A stretch of 64,000 nucleotides of DNA from Trueperaceae bacterium (GTDB taxonomy: Bacteria; Deinococcota; Deinococci; Deinococcales; Trueperaceae). Both the position numbers and the translations under genes were made by a program. The notes under the pieces were generated by a model. It worked only from the letters and a program-made list of their open reading frames with translations, had not been told where the DNA came from and made no database searches. The stretch covers positions 254,599-318,598 of the forward strand of contig JAMLIB010000002.1 of the NCBI GenBank assembly GCA_023954415.1, read 5' to 3'. How positions within the stretch are numbered: the first letter of the stretch is position 1; each line of letters starts with the position of its first letter. Positions 5,191 through 11,919 of the stretch are shown here, in pieces.

Positions 5191-6216
5191 ATGCGCGTCG
5201 CCATCGTAGGAGCCAGCGGAGCCGTCGGACAGGAGCTTCTCTCCATCCTCGCGGAGCGGAACTTCCCCACGACGGAGCTGAGGCTCTACGCCTCGCCCCG
5301 CTCCGCCGGCCGCCGGGTCGAGTTCGCCGGCGCCGAGCACGCCATCATGGCGCTGCCCGAGGACGGCGACCTCGGCGCGGACATCGTGTTCTCCTCGGCG
5401 GGCGGCAGCGTGTCGAAGGCGCACGCCTGGGCCTGGGCGTCGCACGGGGCGGTGGTGGTCGACAATACGAGCGCTTGGCGCATGGACGACCGGGTCCCGC
5501 TCGTCGTACCCGAGGTCAACGCCCACGCCATCGCGCGCCACCAGGGCGTGATCGCCAATCCGAACTGCTCGACCATCATCGCCCTCATGGCGCTCGCGCC
5601 CCTGCATAGGGCGTTCGGCCTCAAGCGGGCCACGGTCGCCACCTACCAGGCGGTGTCGGGCGCGGGAGCGTCCGGCATAACGGAGCTGCGCGAGCAGACC
5701 GCCGCCGTGCTCGGGGGCGCGAGCGCGCCGAGCGGCGAGCCGGCCGGCGGGCCGCCGGCGCCGCGGAAGTTCCGCCACCCCATCGCGTTCAACCTCTTCA
5801 GCCACGACTCCGACGTCGGCGAGGACGGCTACAACGGCGAGGAGCGCAAGCTCCTGCTGGAGTCGTGCAAGATCCTCGAGGCGCCCCACCTCGCCGTCAG
5901 CGCCACGTGCGTGCGGGTGCCCGTGTTCCGCGCGCACAGCGAGGCCATCCACGCGGAGTTCGAGCGGCCCGTGAGCGAGGCCGAGGCCCGCGCGGTGCTG
6001 GAGGGGGCTCCCGGGGTGCGCGTGGTGGACGACCGCGCCAACAACACGTTCCCCATGCCCCTGGCCGCGAGCGGCAAGGACGACACGCTCGTCGGGCGCC
6101 TGCGTGCCGACTCGAGCCTGCCGGGCGGCTTGGCCCTGTTCGTCGCGGGCGACCAGATCCGCAAGGGGGCCGCCCTCAACGCCGTGCAGATCGCCGAGGC
6201 GCTGCTGCCGGACTGA
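5191..6216 (+). CDS. asd: Aspartate-semialdehyde dehydrogenase
   Basis: Asd reduces aspartyl phosphate to aspartate semialdehyde, the branch point to lysine, threonine and methionine. The 341-residue protein has the NADP-binding loop GASGAVG at residues 7-13, the catalytic cysteine in NPNCST (Cys126), and downstream substrate residues including the EERKLLLESCKIL segment. The start follows a leaderless-type TACACT box. The stop codon lies inside the first unit of a 16-bp tandem repeat that runs on for about 120 bases. It diverges from proB with a 213-bp gap in which I see only this promoter. Confidence 0.95.
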   Translation: MRVAIVGASGAVGQELLSILAERNFPTTELRLYASPRSAGRRVEFAGAEHAIMALPEDGDLGADIVFSSAGGSVSKAHAWAWASHGAVVVDNTSAWRMDDRVPLVVPEVNAHAIARHQGVIANPNCSTIIALMALAPLHRAFGLKRATVATYQAVSGAGASGITELREQTAAVLGGASAPSGEPAGGPPAPRKFRHPIAFNLFSHDSDVGEDGYNGEERKLLLESCKILEAPHLAVSATCVRVPVFRAHSEAIHAEFERPVSEAEARAVLEGAPGVRVVDDRANNTFPMPLAASGKDDTLVGRLRADSSLPGGLALFVAGDQIRKGAALNAVQIAEALLPD

Positions 6217-8240: not shown

Positions 8241-8558
8241 GGCCAGTGATCGCCTAAGGGCCGCGAGACGGGGCCGCTCGGGGCGGGCTGACCACCGCCT
8301 GGGTGGACGGCACCGCGCGGCCGCCTGCGCCGCGTGACATGCCCACCCGCACGCTAACGGCCGAGCCGGACCCGGACCCGGTCAGAGCAAGCCAGGCCCG
8401 TCCGTCGCACCGACAGGCGGACGTCCACCGTCTCGGCGGGCGTGGACCGGCACACCTTCACACCTCATCCATGGCGGCGCCCGGCCCCGGCCTCGGGCGG
8501 CCCCCTCGTGGCCCGTTCACGGCTCCATTCGCTTCTTAGGTGATACTAGGCATTGGCT
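8241..8558 (+). other. Intergenic stretch without a recognisable gene
   Basis: About 320 GC-rich bases between degV and the SHMT-like operon. I see no convincing open frame, RNA fold or terminator before the promoter-like box that starts at 8559. Confidence 0.5.
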
Positions 8559-8564
8559 TATGAT
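8559..8564 (+). promoter_or_regulatory. Candidate -10 box of the SHMT-like/aconitase-like operon
   Basis: TATGAT lies in an AT-richer patch and overlaps the palindrome TGATATCA (8561-8568). A weak TTAGGT sits 17 bases upstream. Transcription from here would give a leader of about 120 bases, unusual in a window where many promoters abut the start codon. Confidence 0.45.
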
Positions 8565-8590
8565 ATCATCGCTTAGCAGGCCCACTGAAC

Positions 8591-8616
8591 GGCTTTCAGC
8601 TTTCGCTTCAAAAGCC
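8591..8616 (+). promoter_or_regulatory. Leader hairpin upstream of the SHMT-like operon
   Basis: GGCTTT (8591-8596) can pair with AAAGCC (8611-8616), with an inner AGC/GCT pair (8598-8600/8605-8607). It lies between the candidate promoter and the small leader ORF. Confidence 0.4.
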
Positions 8617-8642: not shown

Positions 8643-8696
8643 ATGCCGCTGCCCCGCTTCCAACCGCGATTCGACGCTTCAACGACCCGCCCATGA
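8643..8696 (+). CDS. 17-codon leader ORF coupled to the SHMT-like gene
   Basis: A short ORF, MPLPRFQPRFDASTTRP, whose TGA overlaps the ATG of the SHMT-like gene (ATGA at 8693-8696). It has a good ribosome site, GGAG at 8634-8637, 5 bases before its ATG, whereas the downstream gene has none of its own. This suggests that ribosomes initiate here and re-initiate on the enzyme gene, so the ORF may be a regulatory leader peptide. The codons contain two Phe, four Pro and three Arg. Whether the peptide is made is untested. Confidence 0.5.
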   Translation: MPLPRFQPRFDASTTRP

Positions 8697-10015
8697 GCGA
8701 ACCCGCAACCACGAACCCGCGGCCCTGGGCATCTCCGCAGCCGGTCGGCGCGGCCCAACCCGCCCGGAGTCGAGCCCTCGATCGCATCCTCGCCGCCGTG
8801 GAGCACCAGTCCGCCTACCGCGCAGAGTGCGTCGGGCTCGTACCGACCGAGAACCTGCTCAGCCCGGCAGCCCGTGGGGTGATGGGGTCCGACCTCGGGC
8901 ACCGCTACCTGTTCCAGAACCCGCAGTGGCGCTACGTCGGCGGGAAGCACCTGGCCGAGGTCGAGTCGCTGGCACAGAAGCTGGCGCGCGACCTGTTCGG
9001 CGCCCGCCACGCGAACGTGCGCCCGCTCTCGGGCGAGAACTGCACCAACATCGTGATCCACTCCGTGCTCAGGCGGGGCGGCACCTTCTACCACCTCGCC
9101 ATGGAGGACGGCGGCCACTTCGCCGCCAGGAGCGTGGCGGCGCGCCTCACCGACGACCTGCGCCTGATCCCCTACGACGCCGCCAGCGCCGGCATCGACC
9201 TGGCCGGCTGCGCCCGGGCCTTCCAGGCCGCGCCGCCGGACGTCGTCTACCTGGACGCTTCGATGATCCTCTTCGCCCACCCCGTCAGGGAGTTGCGGCG
9301 TTTGGCCGGTCCCGACGCCGTCATCGTCTACGACGCCTCGCAGGTCCTCGGCCTGCTGGCGGGCGGCATCTTCCAGGACCCGCTGCGCGAGGGCGCGGAC
9401 GTGCTGTCCGGCAGCACGCACAAGTCGCTGCCGGGGCCGCAGAAGGGCCTGATCCTGACCGACCGCGACGACATCGCCGCGCGCATAGAGGCGACGATCT
9501 TCCCGGGCCACGTCTCCAACTTCCACCTCCACCACGTCGCCGCCCTGGCCATCACGCTGGCCGAGGCGCAGGAGTACGGCGCCGCCTACGCGCGCCAGAC
9601 GGTGGCGAACGCGCGCGCCCTCGGCCGCGAGCTGGCGCGCCTCGGCCTGGCGGTCCAAGGCGGCGAGCGCGTGACGGACTCGCATCAGGTATGGCTCGAC
9701 GCGAGCCCGCTCGCCACCCCGGACGAGGCCGTCGAGGCGCTGCACGACGCCAACCTGATCGCCAACGTCAACCTCATCCCGTCGCTGCGCCGCAAGGGGC
9801 TGCGCCTCGGCACGCCCGAGGTGACGCGCCTGGGCATGCGCGAGCCCGAGATGGCGCGGCTCGCCGCGCTCGTGCACGCGACGCTGGCCGGCGAGGAGCC
9901 CCGCGTCCAGGTACGCGAACGCGTCATGGACCTCGCCCGGCGCTTCCGGACCGTCCATTACTGCCACCCCGCGGCCGCTGCCCCGGGAGCGCCGGCGACC
10001 GCCGAGGCCGCGTGA
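8693..10015 (+). CDS. Serine hydroxymethyltransferase-like PLP enzyme
   Basis: A 440-residue fold-type I PLP enzyme of the SHMT superfamily. Matches to SHMT landmarks are PTENLLS (residues 51-57, compare SENF), RYVGGKHLAEVESLA, the HF segment at about 142, and STHKSLPGPQKG (241-252) with the expected Schiff-base Lys244. It differs from true GlyA: the usual DMAHIAG stretch is YDASQVLGLLAG (213-224), so the residue normally His near the cofactor is Gln or Ser. Its stop overlaps the start of an aconitase-family gene. I do not know the substrate; glycine-dependent aldol or hydroxymethyl chemistry is an inference from the family. A bona fide glyA is not in view. Confidence 0.75.
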   Translation: MSEPATTNPRPWASPQPVGAAQPARSRALDRILAAVEHQSAYRAECVGLVPTENLLSPAARGVMGSDLGHRYLFQNPQWRYVGGKHLAEVESLAQKLARDLFGARHANVRPLSGENCTNIVIHSVLRRGGTFYHLAMEDGGHFAARSVAARLTDDLRLIPYDAASAGIDLAGCARAFQAAPPDVVYLDASMILFAHPVRELRRLAGPDAVIVYDASQVLGLLAGGIFQDPLREGADVLSGSTHKSLPGPQKGLILTDRDDIAARIEATIFPGHVSNFHLHHVAALAITLAEAQEYGAAYARQTVANARALGRELARLGLAVQGGERVTDSHQVWLDASPLATPDEAVEALHDANLIANVNLIPSLRRKGLRLGTPEVTRLGMREPEMARLAALVHATLAGEEPRVQVRERVMDLARRFRTVHYCHPAAAAPGAPATAEAA

Positions 10016-11919
10016 CACCGACCGGGTCACCGACGCTCATCGAGCGTCGGCTGGGCGCCCCGGCCGGCCGGGAGGTCGACCTCGCGGTCGACCTCATCGT
10101 GACCGACGACTGGACGACCCCCTCGCTCCTTCCGACGCTGAGCGCCCTCGGCACCGTGAGGTCCGCCGCGCCGCTCGTGCTCGTTCGCGACCATACCGGC
10201 CCGGCGGACACGTACGTGGGCGCGGAGCGCGACCGGGTCCTCGCGCTCCGGCAGGTCGAGGAGGAGTTCGCGGTCCGCTTCGGCGCCGAGCGCATAACGG
10301 GTCAGGGGATACAACATCACGCCCTCCCGGCCAGCGGCCGCCTGCGCCCTGGCATGCTGGTGCTCGGCAACGACTCGCACACGCCCACGTTGGGCGCCCA
10401 CGGGGTCACGGCGTTCGCGGCGCAGCCCATCACCCTCGCCGTGGCGATCCACACGGGACGCTTCGTCGTTCGCGTGCCGGAGACGGTGCACGTGCGCGTC
10501 GTCGGCCGACTGCGTGGCGACGTCACGGTGCGCGACGCAGCCCTCACCCTCCTCGACCTCCTGCGCGGCGGCGGGTCCGTTCCCCGCCTCGCCACCGGCA
10601 GGGCGCTGGAGTTCGGCGGCCCCGGCCTGGCGCGCCTCACCAGCGCCGAGCGCGCCGTCCTGGCCAACGTCACACCCGAGGCCGTGGCCGTCACCGCGGT
10701 CTTCTCCGGCGAGGCGCCTCCTCAGAGGTCGGGAACGGTCGTCACGCTCGACCTCGCCCAAGTGCTGCCGTCGGTGGCGCGCAGCGGCCAGCCGTCCGAC
10801 GTCGTGCCGCTGGCGCGGCTCGGCGCCGTGCGCGTGGACCGCGTGTTCGTCGGCACGTGCGCCGGCGGGACCTACGAGGAGATCGCCGCGTTCGCTGCCG
10901 CGCTGGGAGCGCGCGCGGCGATCCCGACCGTCGTGGCGCCCGCCTCTACCGGCGTGCTCGAGCGGCTGAGCGCGGAAGGCATCGCACGGCGGCTCGAGGA
11001 TGCCGGTGTGACACTGCTCGCGCCCGGGTGCGGACCGTGCTTCGGCTTCGGGATGAGCCGCCTCGAGGACGACGAGGTGGCCGTCGTGACCGGGAACCGC
11101 AACAGCGTCGGCCGCATGGGCTCGCCCCACGCCCGGATCGTCCTGGCCGCCGGCCGCACGGCCGGGCAGGCCGCCAGCACCGGGTGGCTGAACCAGCCGG
11201 CCGCCACAGGCGGTGGCGGAGCGAGCGCAGCCAACGAGCCTCGCGGGGCGGACACCGTACATGCCGACAGGGATGCCGGGGCGCGGACCGTACGCGCCGG
11301 CCGTCAAGCCGAGGCGGCGCTCGCGCATACAGACCGCGCCCCCGCGCCGACGGTCGTCTGGCCCACCACCGGCAACGTCGTCAGGCTACTCGGCCTCGTC
11401 TCCACCGACGACCTGACCCCTTCCAGCGTGCCCGGCGTGGGGACGTCGAGCGACGCCGACCCGCGCGTGGCCCGGCGGCTGCTGCTGCACCACGTCGACC
11501 CGAGCGCCGCCGACCGCTCCCTGGAGGGCACCGTCCTCGTGGGAGACGAGAACTTCGGCATGGGCAGCAACCGGGCGTCCTCCATCAGGGCCTTGGTGCA
11601 GGCGGGCGTGCGCGCCGTGATCGCCCCGAGCATCGCGCCGCTCTACGCCTCGGGCGCGCGCGACGAGGGGCTGCCGGCCATCACCCTCGCGGACGAGGCG
11701 TTCTACGGGGCCCTGACACCGGAGGCACTGCTGGAGTTGGACCTCGCCGCCGGCACCGTGACGGTCCGCTCGGTCGCTCCCGGACGACCGGCGGCCTCCG
11801 ACCTGCGCCGCTTCCGCTTCGCCCCGGCGGGCCCTCACGAGGCGGCCGTTCTCGCGGCCGGCGGCGCCGTACCGTACCTGCGCGGTCCGGGGGGCTGTGC
11901 AATGGCCAGCAGGACGTGA
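10012..11919 (+). CDS. Aconitase/isopropylmalate-isomerase family enzyme, large and small domains fused
   Basis: A 635-residue protein joining a LeuC-like [4Fe-4S] domain (about 1-385), a low-complexity linker (about 390-450) and a LeuD-like swivel domain (about 455-635). Cluster ligands are recognisable as Cys283 in GTCAGG and Cys340/Cys343 in PGCGPC. Substrate-site motifs are DHT (60-62), GNDSHT (119-124), NRNSVGRMGS (362-371) and, in the swivel, NFGMGSNRASS. It presumably catalyses a dehydration/hydration of a carboxylic acid. The GTG start (10012) overlaps the TGA of the SHMT-like gene, so the two are co-translated. No leuA or leuB neighbours it, so an ordinary leucine role is not supported. 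Confidence 0.8.
   Translation: MTPTGSPTLIERRLGAPAGREVDLAVDLIVTDDWTTPSLLPTLSALGTVRSAAPLVLVRDHTGPADTYVGAERDRVLALRQVEEEFAVRFGAERITGQGIQHHALPASGRLRPGMLVLGNDSHTPTLGAHGVTAFAAQPITLAVAIHTGRFVVRVPETVHVRVVGRLRGDVTVRDAALTLLDLLRGGGSVPRLATGRALEFGGPGLARLTSAERAVLANVTPEAVAVTAVFSGEAPPQRSGTVVTLDLAQVLPSVARSGQPSDVVPLARLGAVRVDRVFVGTCAGGTYEEIAAFAAALGARAAIPTVVAPASTGVLERLSAEGIARRLEDAGVTLLAPGCGPCFGFGMSRLEDDEVAVVTGNRNSVGRMGSPHARIVLAAGRTAGQAASTGWLNQPAATGGGGASAANEPRGADTVHADRDAGARTVRAGRQAEAALAHTDRAPAPTVVWPTTGNVVRLLGLVSTDDLTPSSVPGVGTSSDADPRVARRLLLHHVDPSAADRSLEGTVLVGDENFGMGSNRASSIRALVQAGVRAVIAPSIAPLYASGARDEGLPAITLADEAFYGALTPEALLELDLAAGTVTVRSVAPGRPAASDLRRFRFAPAGPHEAAVLAAGGAVPYLRGPGGCAMASRT

Follow-up and report, generated by a model that had tools for sequence, protein, structure and literature searches.

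Two overlapping genes of a Trueperaceae bacterium, P0001 and P0002, were found to be a real, conserved two-enzyme module without an assigned reaction. They lie in a window of 64,000 nucleotides (contig JAMLIB010000002.1, from the 3.2 Mb genome G000) and encode an enzyme of the serine hydroxymethyltransferase (SHMT) superfamily, which uses pyridoxal phosphate (PLP), and a single-chain iron-sulfur (Fe-S) hydro-lyase resembling LeuC plus LeuD. Upstream sequences give good evidence linking the pair to lysine regulation, and there is moderate evidence of a role in aminoadipate supply. It is quite possible, if somewhat short of an even chance, that the pair is a stand-alone lysine-regulon biosynthetic module in part of the Trueperaceae, supplying 2-oxoadipate or 2-aminoadipate; for its membership of lysine synthesis, its substrates and its reaction order, we infer the scheme set out below. 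A first-pass annotation of this DNA had put forward a short two-step carboxylate or amino-acid route; since neither the trees of the two proteins nor their pairing in relatives spoke against it, that idea stands, partly supported and narrowed to 2-oxoadipate/2-aminoadipate supply.

The regulatory link was drawn from an operator-like inverted repeat, CTTTCG-N3-CGAAAG (consensus CTTTCGNNNCGAAAG), which was located upstream of the pair in the window and also 5′ of the pair in G003, G005, G010, G028 and G031. Among 1000 shuffled versions of the upstream stretch, CTTTCGNNNCGAAAG turned up in 0–2 when at most one mismatch was allowed and in 16–31 when two were. When five genomes carrying the pair were scanned, about a dozen distinct sites were obtained, and all but one (G031:C12) were situated at the pair, 5′ of LysW-LysX-LysY-LysZ or, in G028, 5′ of a Lys/Arg/Orn transporter gene. 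The operator was common to the pair and the LysW operon in G000, G003, G005, G010, G028 and G031. Lysine operons of several non-carriers displayed the sites too, often two of them about 200–214 bp apart. Paired repeats 198–214 bp apart were also observed 5′ of LysW at L078 (G000:C6), L081, L082, L115, L116, L120, L122 and L124; in G000 they flank the LysW promoter, which suggests a candidate looping repressor at this operon. A sigma-70-like promoter was found once in the region upstream of the pair (0.1 expected from shuffles), and no glycine riboswitch or other known RNA was detected there at E values up to 1.

The pair was carried by 11 of the 39 Trueperaceae genomes searched, with both genes present in G000, G003, G004, G005, G010, G027, G028, G029, G031 and G033; G030, in which the P0002 orthologue was seen at a contig edge, was counted among the 11. 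Homocitrate synthase exceeded its cut-off in none of the 11 carriers, compared with 10 of 26 non-carriers (p = 0.018, not corrected for kinship). The ten family members with this enzyme were also those with LysT, and no carrier has LysT beside LysX. DapB was not found in carriers G010, G027–G031 and G033, nor LysA in carriers G010, G027 and G028. LysX itself was above cut-off in most of the family, LysZ matched the [LysW]-aminoadipate kinase model, and G028 presented a complete LysW-X-Y-Z-J-K operon. The LysX proteins of carriers G000, G005 and G031 and of non-carrier G001, the only ones read, have the Asn-Thr signature seen in Thermus, which marks LysX of the aminoadipate type (PMC10433800). 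An arginine role for LysX was ruled out by this signature, where read, and by ArgJ, which all carriers have (in G031 divided between two contig ends), so that LysX is not needed for arginine. A previous study found the aminoadipate pathway to be ancestral in the phylum and its large gene cluster to be present in Truepera (PMC3356886). The combination of operator sharing and pathway gaps argues for 2-oxoadipate/2-aminoadipate supply to lysine synthesis of the LysW type. As a separate observation, the LysW carrier proteins (L092 1169–1429; G001, G005, G010, G028 and G031) keep the C-terminal EDWGE and do not have the zinc-finger cysteines of Thermus.

The named relatives compared were Trueperaceae or Deinococcota assemblies. 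Among orthologues, which share 52–88% identity, the altered motifs of both proteins were invariant, and GTGA or ATGA was present at 9/9 readable junctions, so that the overlap is not due to chance. Neighbouring genes varied by genus (DegV, ComM, GH3, M3 peptidase, dehydrogenases, M19 peptidase and ABC transporters), and no conserved neighbour, including tailoring, transport or peptide-synthetase genes, was found beside the pair in the carrier loci compared; as the flanks differ among genera, the pair was regarded as a self-contained unit. A search of other Deinococcota with P0001 gave no pair outside the Trueperaceae, and a plasmid search gave none either; beyond the Trueperaceae, the contig scans (genome and viral) relied on two peptide motifs only, which distant pairs may escape. 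No paper linking the two enzymes was found in a literature search.

P0001 matched the Pfam family SHMT (PF00464) with 149 bits (cut-off 27), scored below the cut-off of the GlyA model NF000586 (282.9 bits against 335) and reached 231 bits with the FTase model (cut-off 650); no NCBIfam model attained its cut-off with either P0001 or P0002. The best PDB sequence matches were archaeal SHMT (M. jannaschii, 4bhd/4uqv), followed by the transaldolase ObiH, and archaeal SHMT was also the best structural match of the AlphaFold model (Z 31.4, with 30.3 for ObiH), a weak model with a mean pLDDT of 62.5 and a poor active site. In the tree, the pair proteins formed one clade (100/99), which a 99/97 branch joins with FTase, ObiH and OrfA, with GlyA and M. 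jannaschii SHMT on the opposite side; P0001 thus falls outside the GlyA clade, and the inner order on the transaldolase side, with its long branches and open forks, is unsure. OrfA has been classed with the L-threonine transaldolases (PMC5490192). In the alignment, ObiH residues H131, D204, K234, Y55 and R366 correspond to H142, D214, K244, Y72 and R379 of P0001. Its second folate loop is about 5–6 residues shorter than in GlyA, like that of ObiH, and the two loops in question are the folate-binding regions of SHMTs (PMC10495429). The tree placement and the short loop suggest that P0001 would be independent of folate. SHMT-like relatives of P0001, partly annotated as hypothetical, were also noticed on Streptomyces plasmids (L058, L059, L060 and L070), in clusters that hold P450, carbamoyltransferase, TauD dioxygenase or peptide-synthetase genes.

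P0002 has the fold, the three Fe-S cysteines and the serine base of the aconitase superfamily, and matched the Pfam families Aconitase (176.5 bits, cut-off 28.7) and Aconitase_C (25.8 bits, cut-off 22.8). Its structural model was good (pLDDT 77.7, pTM 0.82); the closest solved structure was the homoaconitase large subunit of M. jannaschii (Z 43.1, 374 residues), and complete aconitase matched over 558 residues with Z 33.8. Alignment with bovine aconitase and relatives revealed the equivalents of Asp100-His101, His147, Asp165-Ser-His167, the three cysteines, Asn446-Arg447, Arg452, Ser642 and Arg644, so that Fe-S ligands, malate-backbone residues and base residues are all kept. In every pair protein aligned, CTN is replaced by C[AS]G and the specificity loop by TPSxVPGxGxSxD, unlike known LeuD/HacB loops, and GSNRA was present in 9/9. 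Substrate binding in this family depends critically on two regions of the small subunit, the GSSRE motif and the specificity loop (PMC7308503). On the tree, P0002 and its orthologues branched off by themselves on a long stem at the LeuC/HacA side, outside LeuCD, LysT, aconitase and any other reference group, and its fusion is therefore considered independent of the known single-chain aconitases; with the single-chain aconitate hydratase model PRK07229 it scored 204.6 bits (cut-off 612) and fell outside that clade, and with the AcnX model 18.8 bits, below the cut-off of 31.5.

Much of what the first-pass annotation had read from the window was recovered, namely both open reading frames with their GTGA overlap at 10012–10015, the SHMT superfamily of P0001, and a single-chain LeuC+LeuD-type P0002 with the cysteines C283, C340 and C343. 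The checks it had suggested placed P0001 outside housekeeping GlyA and P0002 outside LeuCD and all other reference groups, with the pairing conserved in the Trueperaceae carriers. Other claims needed qualification. The altered YDASQ motif is real and invariant in all P0001 orthologues, but YDxS is usual in the branch with archaeal SHMT, ObiH and FTase, and only the change of H to Q is peculiar. The linker of about 60 residues is present in the lineage of the window, but it is long in some lineages only. Leucine and folate genes do not adjoin the pair, as had been stated, but an aspartate-semialdehyde dehydrogenase gene lies at 5191–6216.

Table 1. Positions in the window of the P0001-P0002 pair and of its upstream and internal features.
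Feature	Coordinates	Strand	Remark
Sigma-70-like promoter, GTGATA-18-TATCAT, TG before second hexamer	8540..8569	+	Consensus match only
Operator-like inverted repeat CTTTCG-CTT-CAAAAG	8600..8614		Consensus CTTTCGNNNCGAAAG, 1 mismatch; 93 bp before start codon
P0001, SHMT-superfamily PLP enzyme	8693..10015	+	440 aa; proposed folate-independent glycine aldolase/transaldolase
YDASQ motif	9329..9343	+	P0001 residues 213-217; D214 = PLP-ring aspartate
PLP lysine K244 (STHKS)	9422..9424	+	Catalytic; counterpart of ObiH K234 in the alignment
P0002, single-chain LeuC+LeuD-like Fe-S hydro-lyase	10012..11919	+	635 aa; GTG start
GTGA stop/start overlap, P0001/P0002	10012..10015	+	RTGA in 9/9 readable pair junctions
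Fe-S ligand C283 (GTCAGG)	10858..10860	+	Alignment; family motif normally CTN
Fe-S ligands C340, C343 (CGPC)	11029..11040	+	Alignment
Low-complexity linker, large/small domains	11200..11349	+	Residues 399-443 pLDDT <50; length varies among orthologues
Replaced substrate-recognition loop TDDLTPSSVPGVGTSSD	11404..11454	+	P0002 residues 465-481
GSNRA in place of family GSSRE	11563..11577	+	Residues 518-522; S519 aligns with aconitase Ser642

The chemistry of the two families would allow a new entry to lysine, a doubtful one as it stands, in which the SHMT-like and then the aconitase-like enzyme would turn glycine plus 2-oxoglutarate (or succinate semialdehyde) into 2-oxoadipate. P0001 would catalyse a glycine-dependent aldol addition to a carbonyl acceptor, and P0002 would remove water from the aldol product by aconitase chemistry, with a serine as base and a [4Fe-4S] cluster as Lewis acid; the resulting enamine would pass to an imine, whose hydrolysis would yield a 2-oxo acid. 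As acceptor, 2-oxoglutarate would be the most economical choice, with 2-aminohomocitrate as the aldol product, which dehydration and hydrolysis would convert to oxaloglutarate and decarboxylation to 2-oxoadipate; the next candidate would be succinate semialdehyde. An aldehyde acceptor would give a 2-oxo acid longer by two carbons, and a 2-oxo acid acceptor, with decarboxylation, one longer by one carbon. Transamination of 2-oxoadipate would then provide 2-aminoadipate for LysX, and with either acceptor homocitrate synthase, homoaconitase and homoisocitrate dehydrogenase would be bypassed.

Several observations weigh against this proposal. The gene absences are based on family-model searches in assemblies that are mostly incomplete, and a search of 300 bp gave no operator match for the pairs of G027, G029 and G033; no motif common to the operator-less pair promoters and the LysW promoter of G020 was found. 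DapB was detected in G000, G001, G002, G005 and G009 and in partial form in G004, and since the carriers G000, G005 and probably G004 have this gene, the organism of the window may use the diaminopimelate route. The non-carriers G007, G011, G018, G020 and G023 have LysX and are without homocitrate synthase, LysT, DapB and the pair, so that the same pathway gap occurs without the pair. G003, G004 and G010 contain another homoaconitase-like large subunit in catabolic-looking surroundings, and G000 has a homoisocitrate/isocitrate dehydrogenase-like gene that would be superfluous in the proposed route. Ketone acceptors such as 2-oxoglutarate are rare for aldol addition in the superfamily of P0001, and homoaconitase is held to use a loop arginine for the distal carboxylate, an arginine that P0002 does not have. 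At L079 (G003:C173) and L080 (G004:C37), the homoaconitase-like large subunit was observed beside HMG-CoA-lyase-like and transporter genes in an apparent catabolic cluster, with a small subunit adjoining it in G004 (L080).

Other explanations account for part of these data. The product of the pair could be a beta-hydroxy or dehydro amino acid destined for an osmolyte, the cell wall or a small secondary metabolite, the pair having only its regulator in common with lysine synthesis; the related transaldolases OrfA, ObiH and FTase belong to secondary metabolism, the distribution is patchy and the five non-carriers live with the same gap, but the lack of conserved tailoring, transport or peptide-synthetase genes beside the pair makes this purpose unlikely. 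A reading of P0002 as a diverged homoaconitase that serves the standard aminoadipate pathway, with P0001 in an unrelated or supporting role, would agree with its closest solved structure, the lysine regulon, the absence of LysT beside LysX in carriers and the homoisocitrate dehydrogenase-like gene of G000. This is distinctly unlikely, however, given that homocitrate synthase was not found in the carriers and that GSSRE and the specificity loop are both altered, and it leaves the constant partnership with a PLP enzyme unexplained.

Glyoxylate assimilation was also considered, as an Fe-S form of the beta-hydroxyaspartate route in which P0001 would form 3-hydroxyaspartate from glycine and glyoxylate, and its dehydration by P0002 would give iminosuccinate/oxaloacetate. 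Glyoxylate is an aldehyde, P0002 retains the residues that bind a malate backbone such as that of 3-hydroxyaspartate, and no further genes would be required; nevertheless, it is left unexplained why the pair and the lysine operon have an operator in common, malate synthase distribution does not follow the pair (a point judged not informative), and the idea is improbable. Least credible is a pair of ordinary, redundant GlyA and LeuCD/aconitase duplicates, to which the overall family matches, SHMT and aconitase, would point. G000 holds GlyA, LeuC-LeuD-LeuB and AcnA-like loci separately from the pair, and the altered motifs are invariant among orthologues; this highly improbable reading was rejected on the trees of both proteins.

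If true, supply of 2-oxoadipate or 2-aminoadipate by the pair would represent a new route to 2-aminoadipate, with 2-oxo acid chain extension without acetyl-CoA, and would account for a LysW pathway without homocitrate synthase in some Trueperaceae. It would also extend the aconitase superfamily to an open-chain beta-hydroxy amino acid as substrate, and give transaldolase-like enzymes, which until now have been known chiefly from antibiotics, a place in primary metabolism.

Compared with known systems, P0001 resembles the L-threonine transaldolases (ObiH/ObaG, FTase and the alanylclavam enzyme OrfA, that of S. clavuligerus being 40.7% identical) in superfamily, catalytic H, D and K together with Y and R, short second folate loop and side of the tree. 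Unlike them, it belongs to a well-supported clade of its own, has Q for H after YDAS and FQNPQW in loop 1, and is paired with an Fe-S dehydratase without a biosynthetic cluster. The SHMT of M. jannaschii shares the DGGH and QDPLREGA stretches with P0001, but groups with GlyA at 99/97 and has a longer pterin/folate loop. P0002 shares fold, Fe-S cysteines and malate-backbone residues with HacAB, LeuCD and LysTU, from which it differs as a single chain with GSNRA instead of GSSRE, C[AS]G instead of CTN, a new specificity loop and a long separate branch. The description of its large-then-small domain order as unusual in the first-pass annotation is not supported, as single-chain aconitate hydratases of 642–646 aa have this order; aconitase X is distant in sequence and differs in Fe-S ligands and domain order. 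With the LysW-mediated aminoadipate pathway of Thermus, the carriers share LysW-X-Y-Z, as well as J and K in those that were read; unlike Thermus, they are without homocitrate synthase or LysTU, in whose place the pair is proposed to act.

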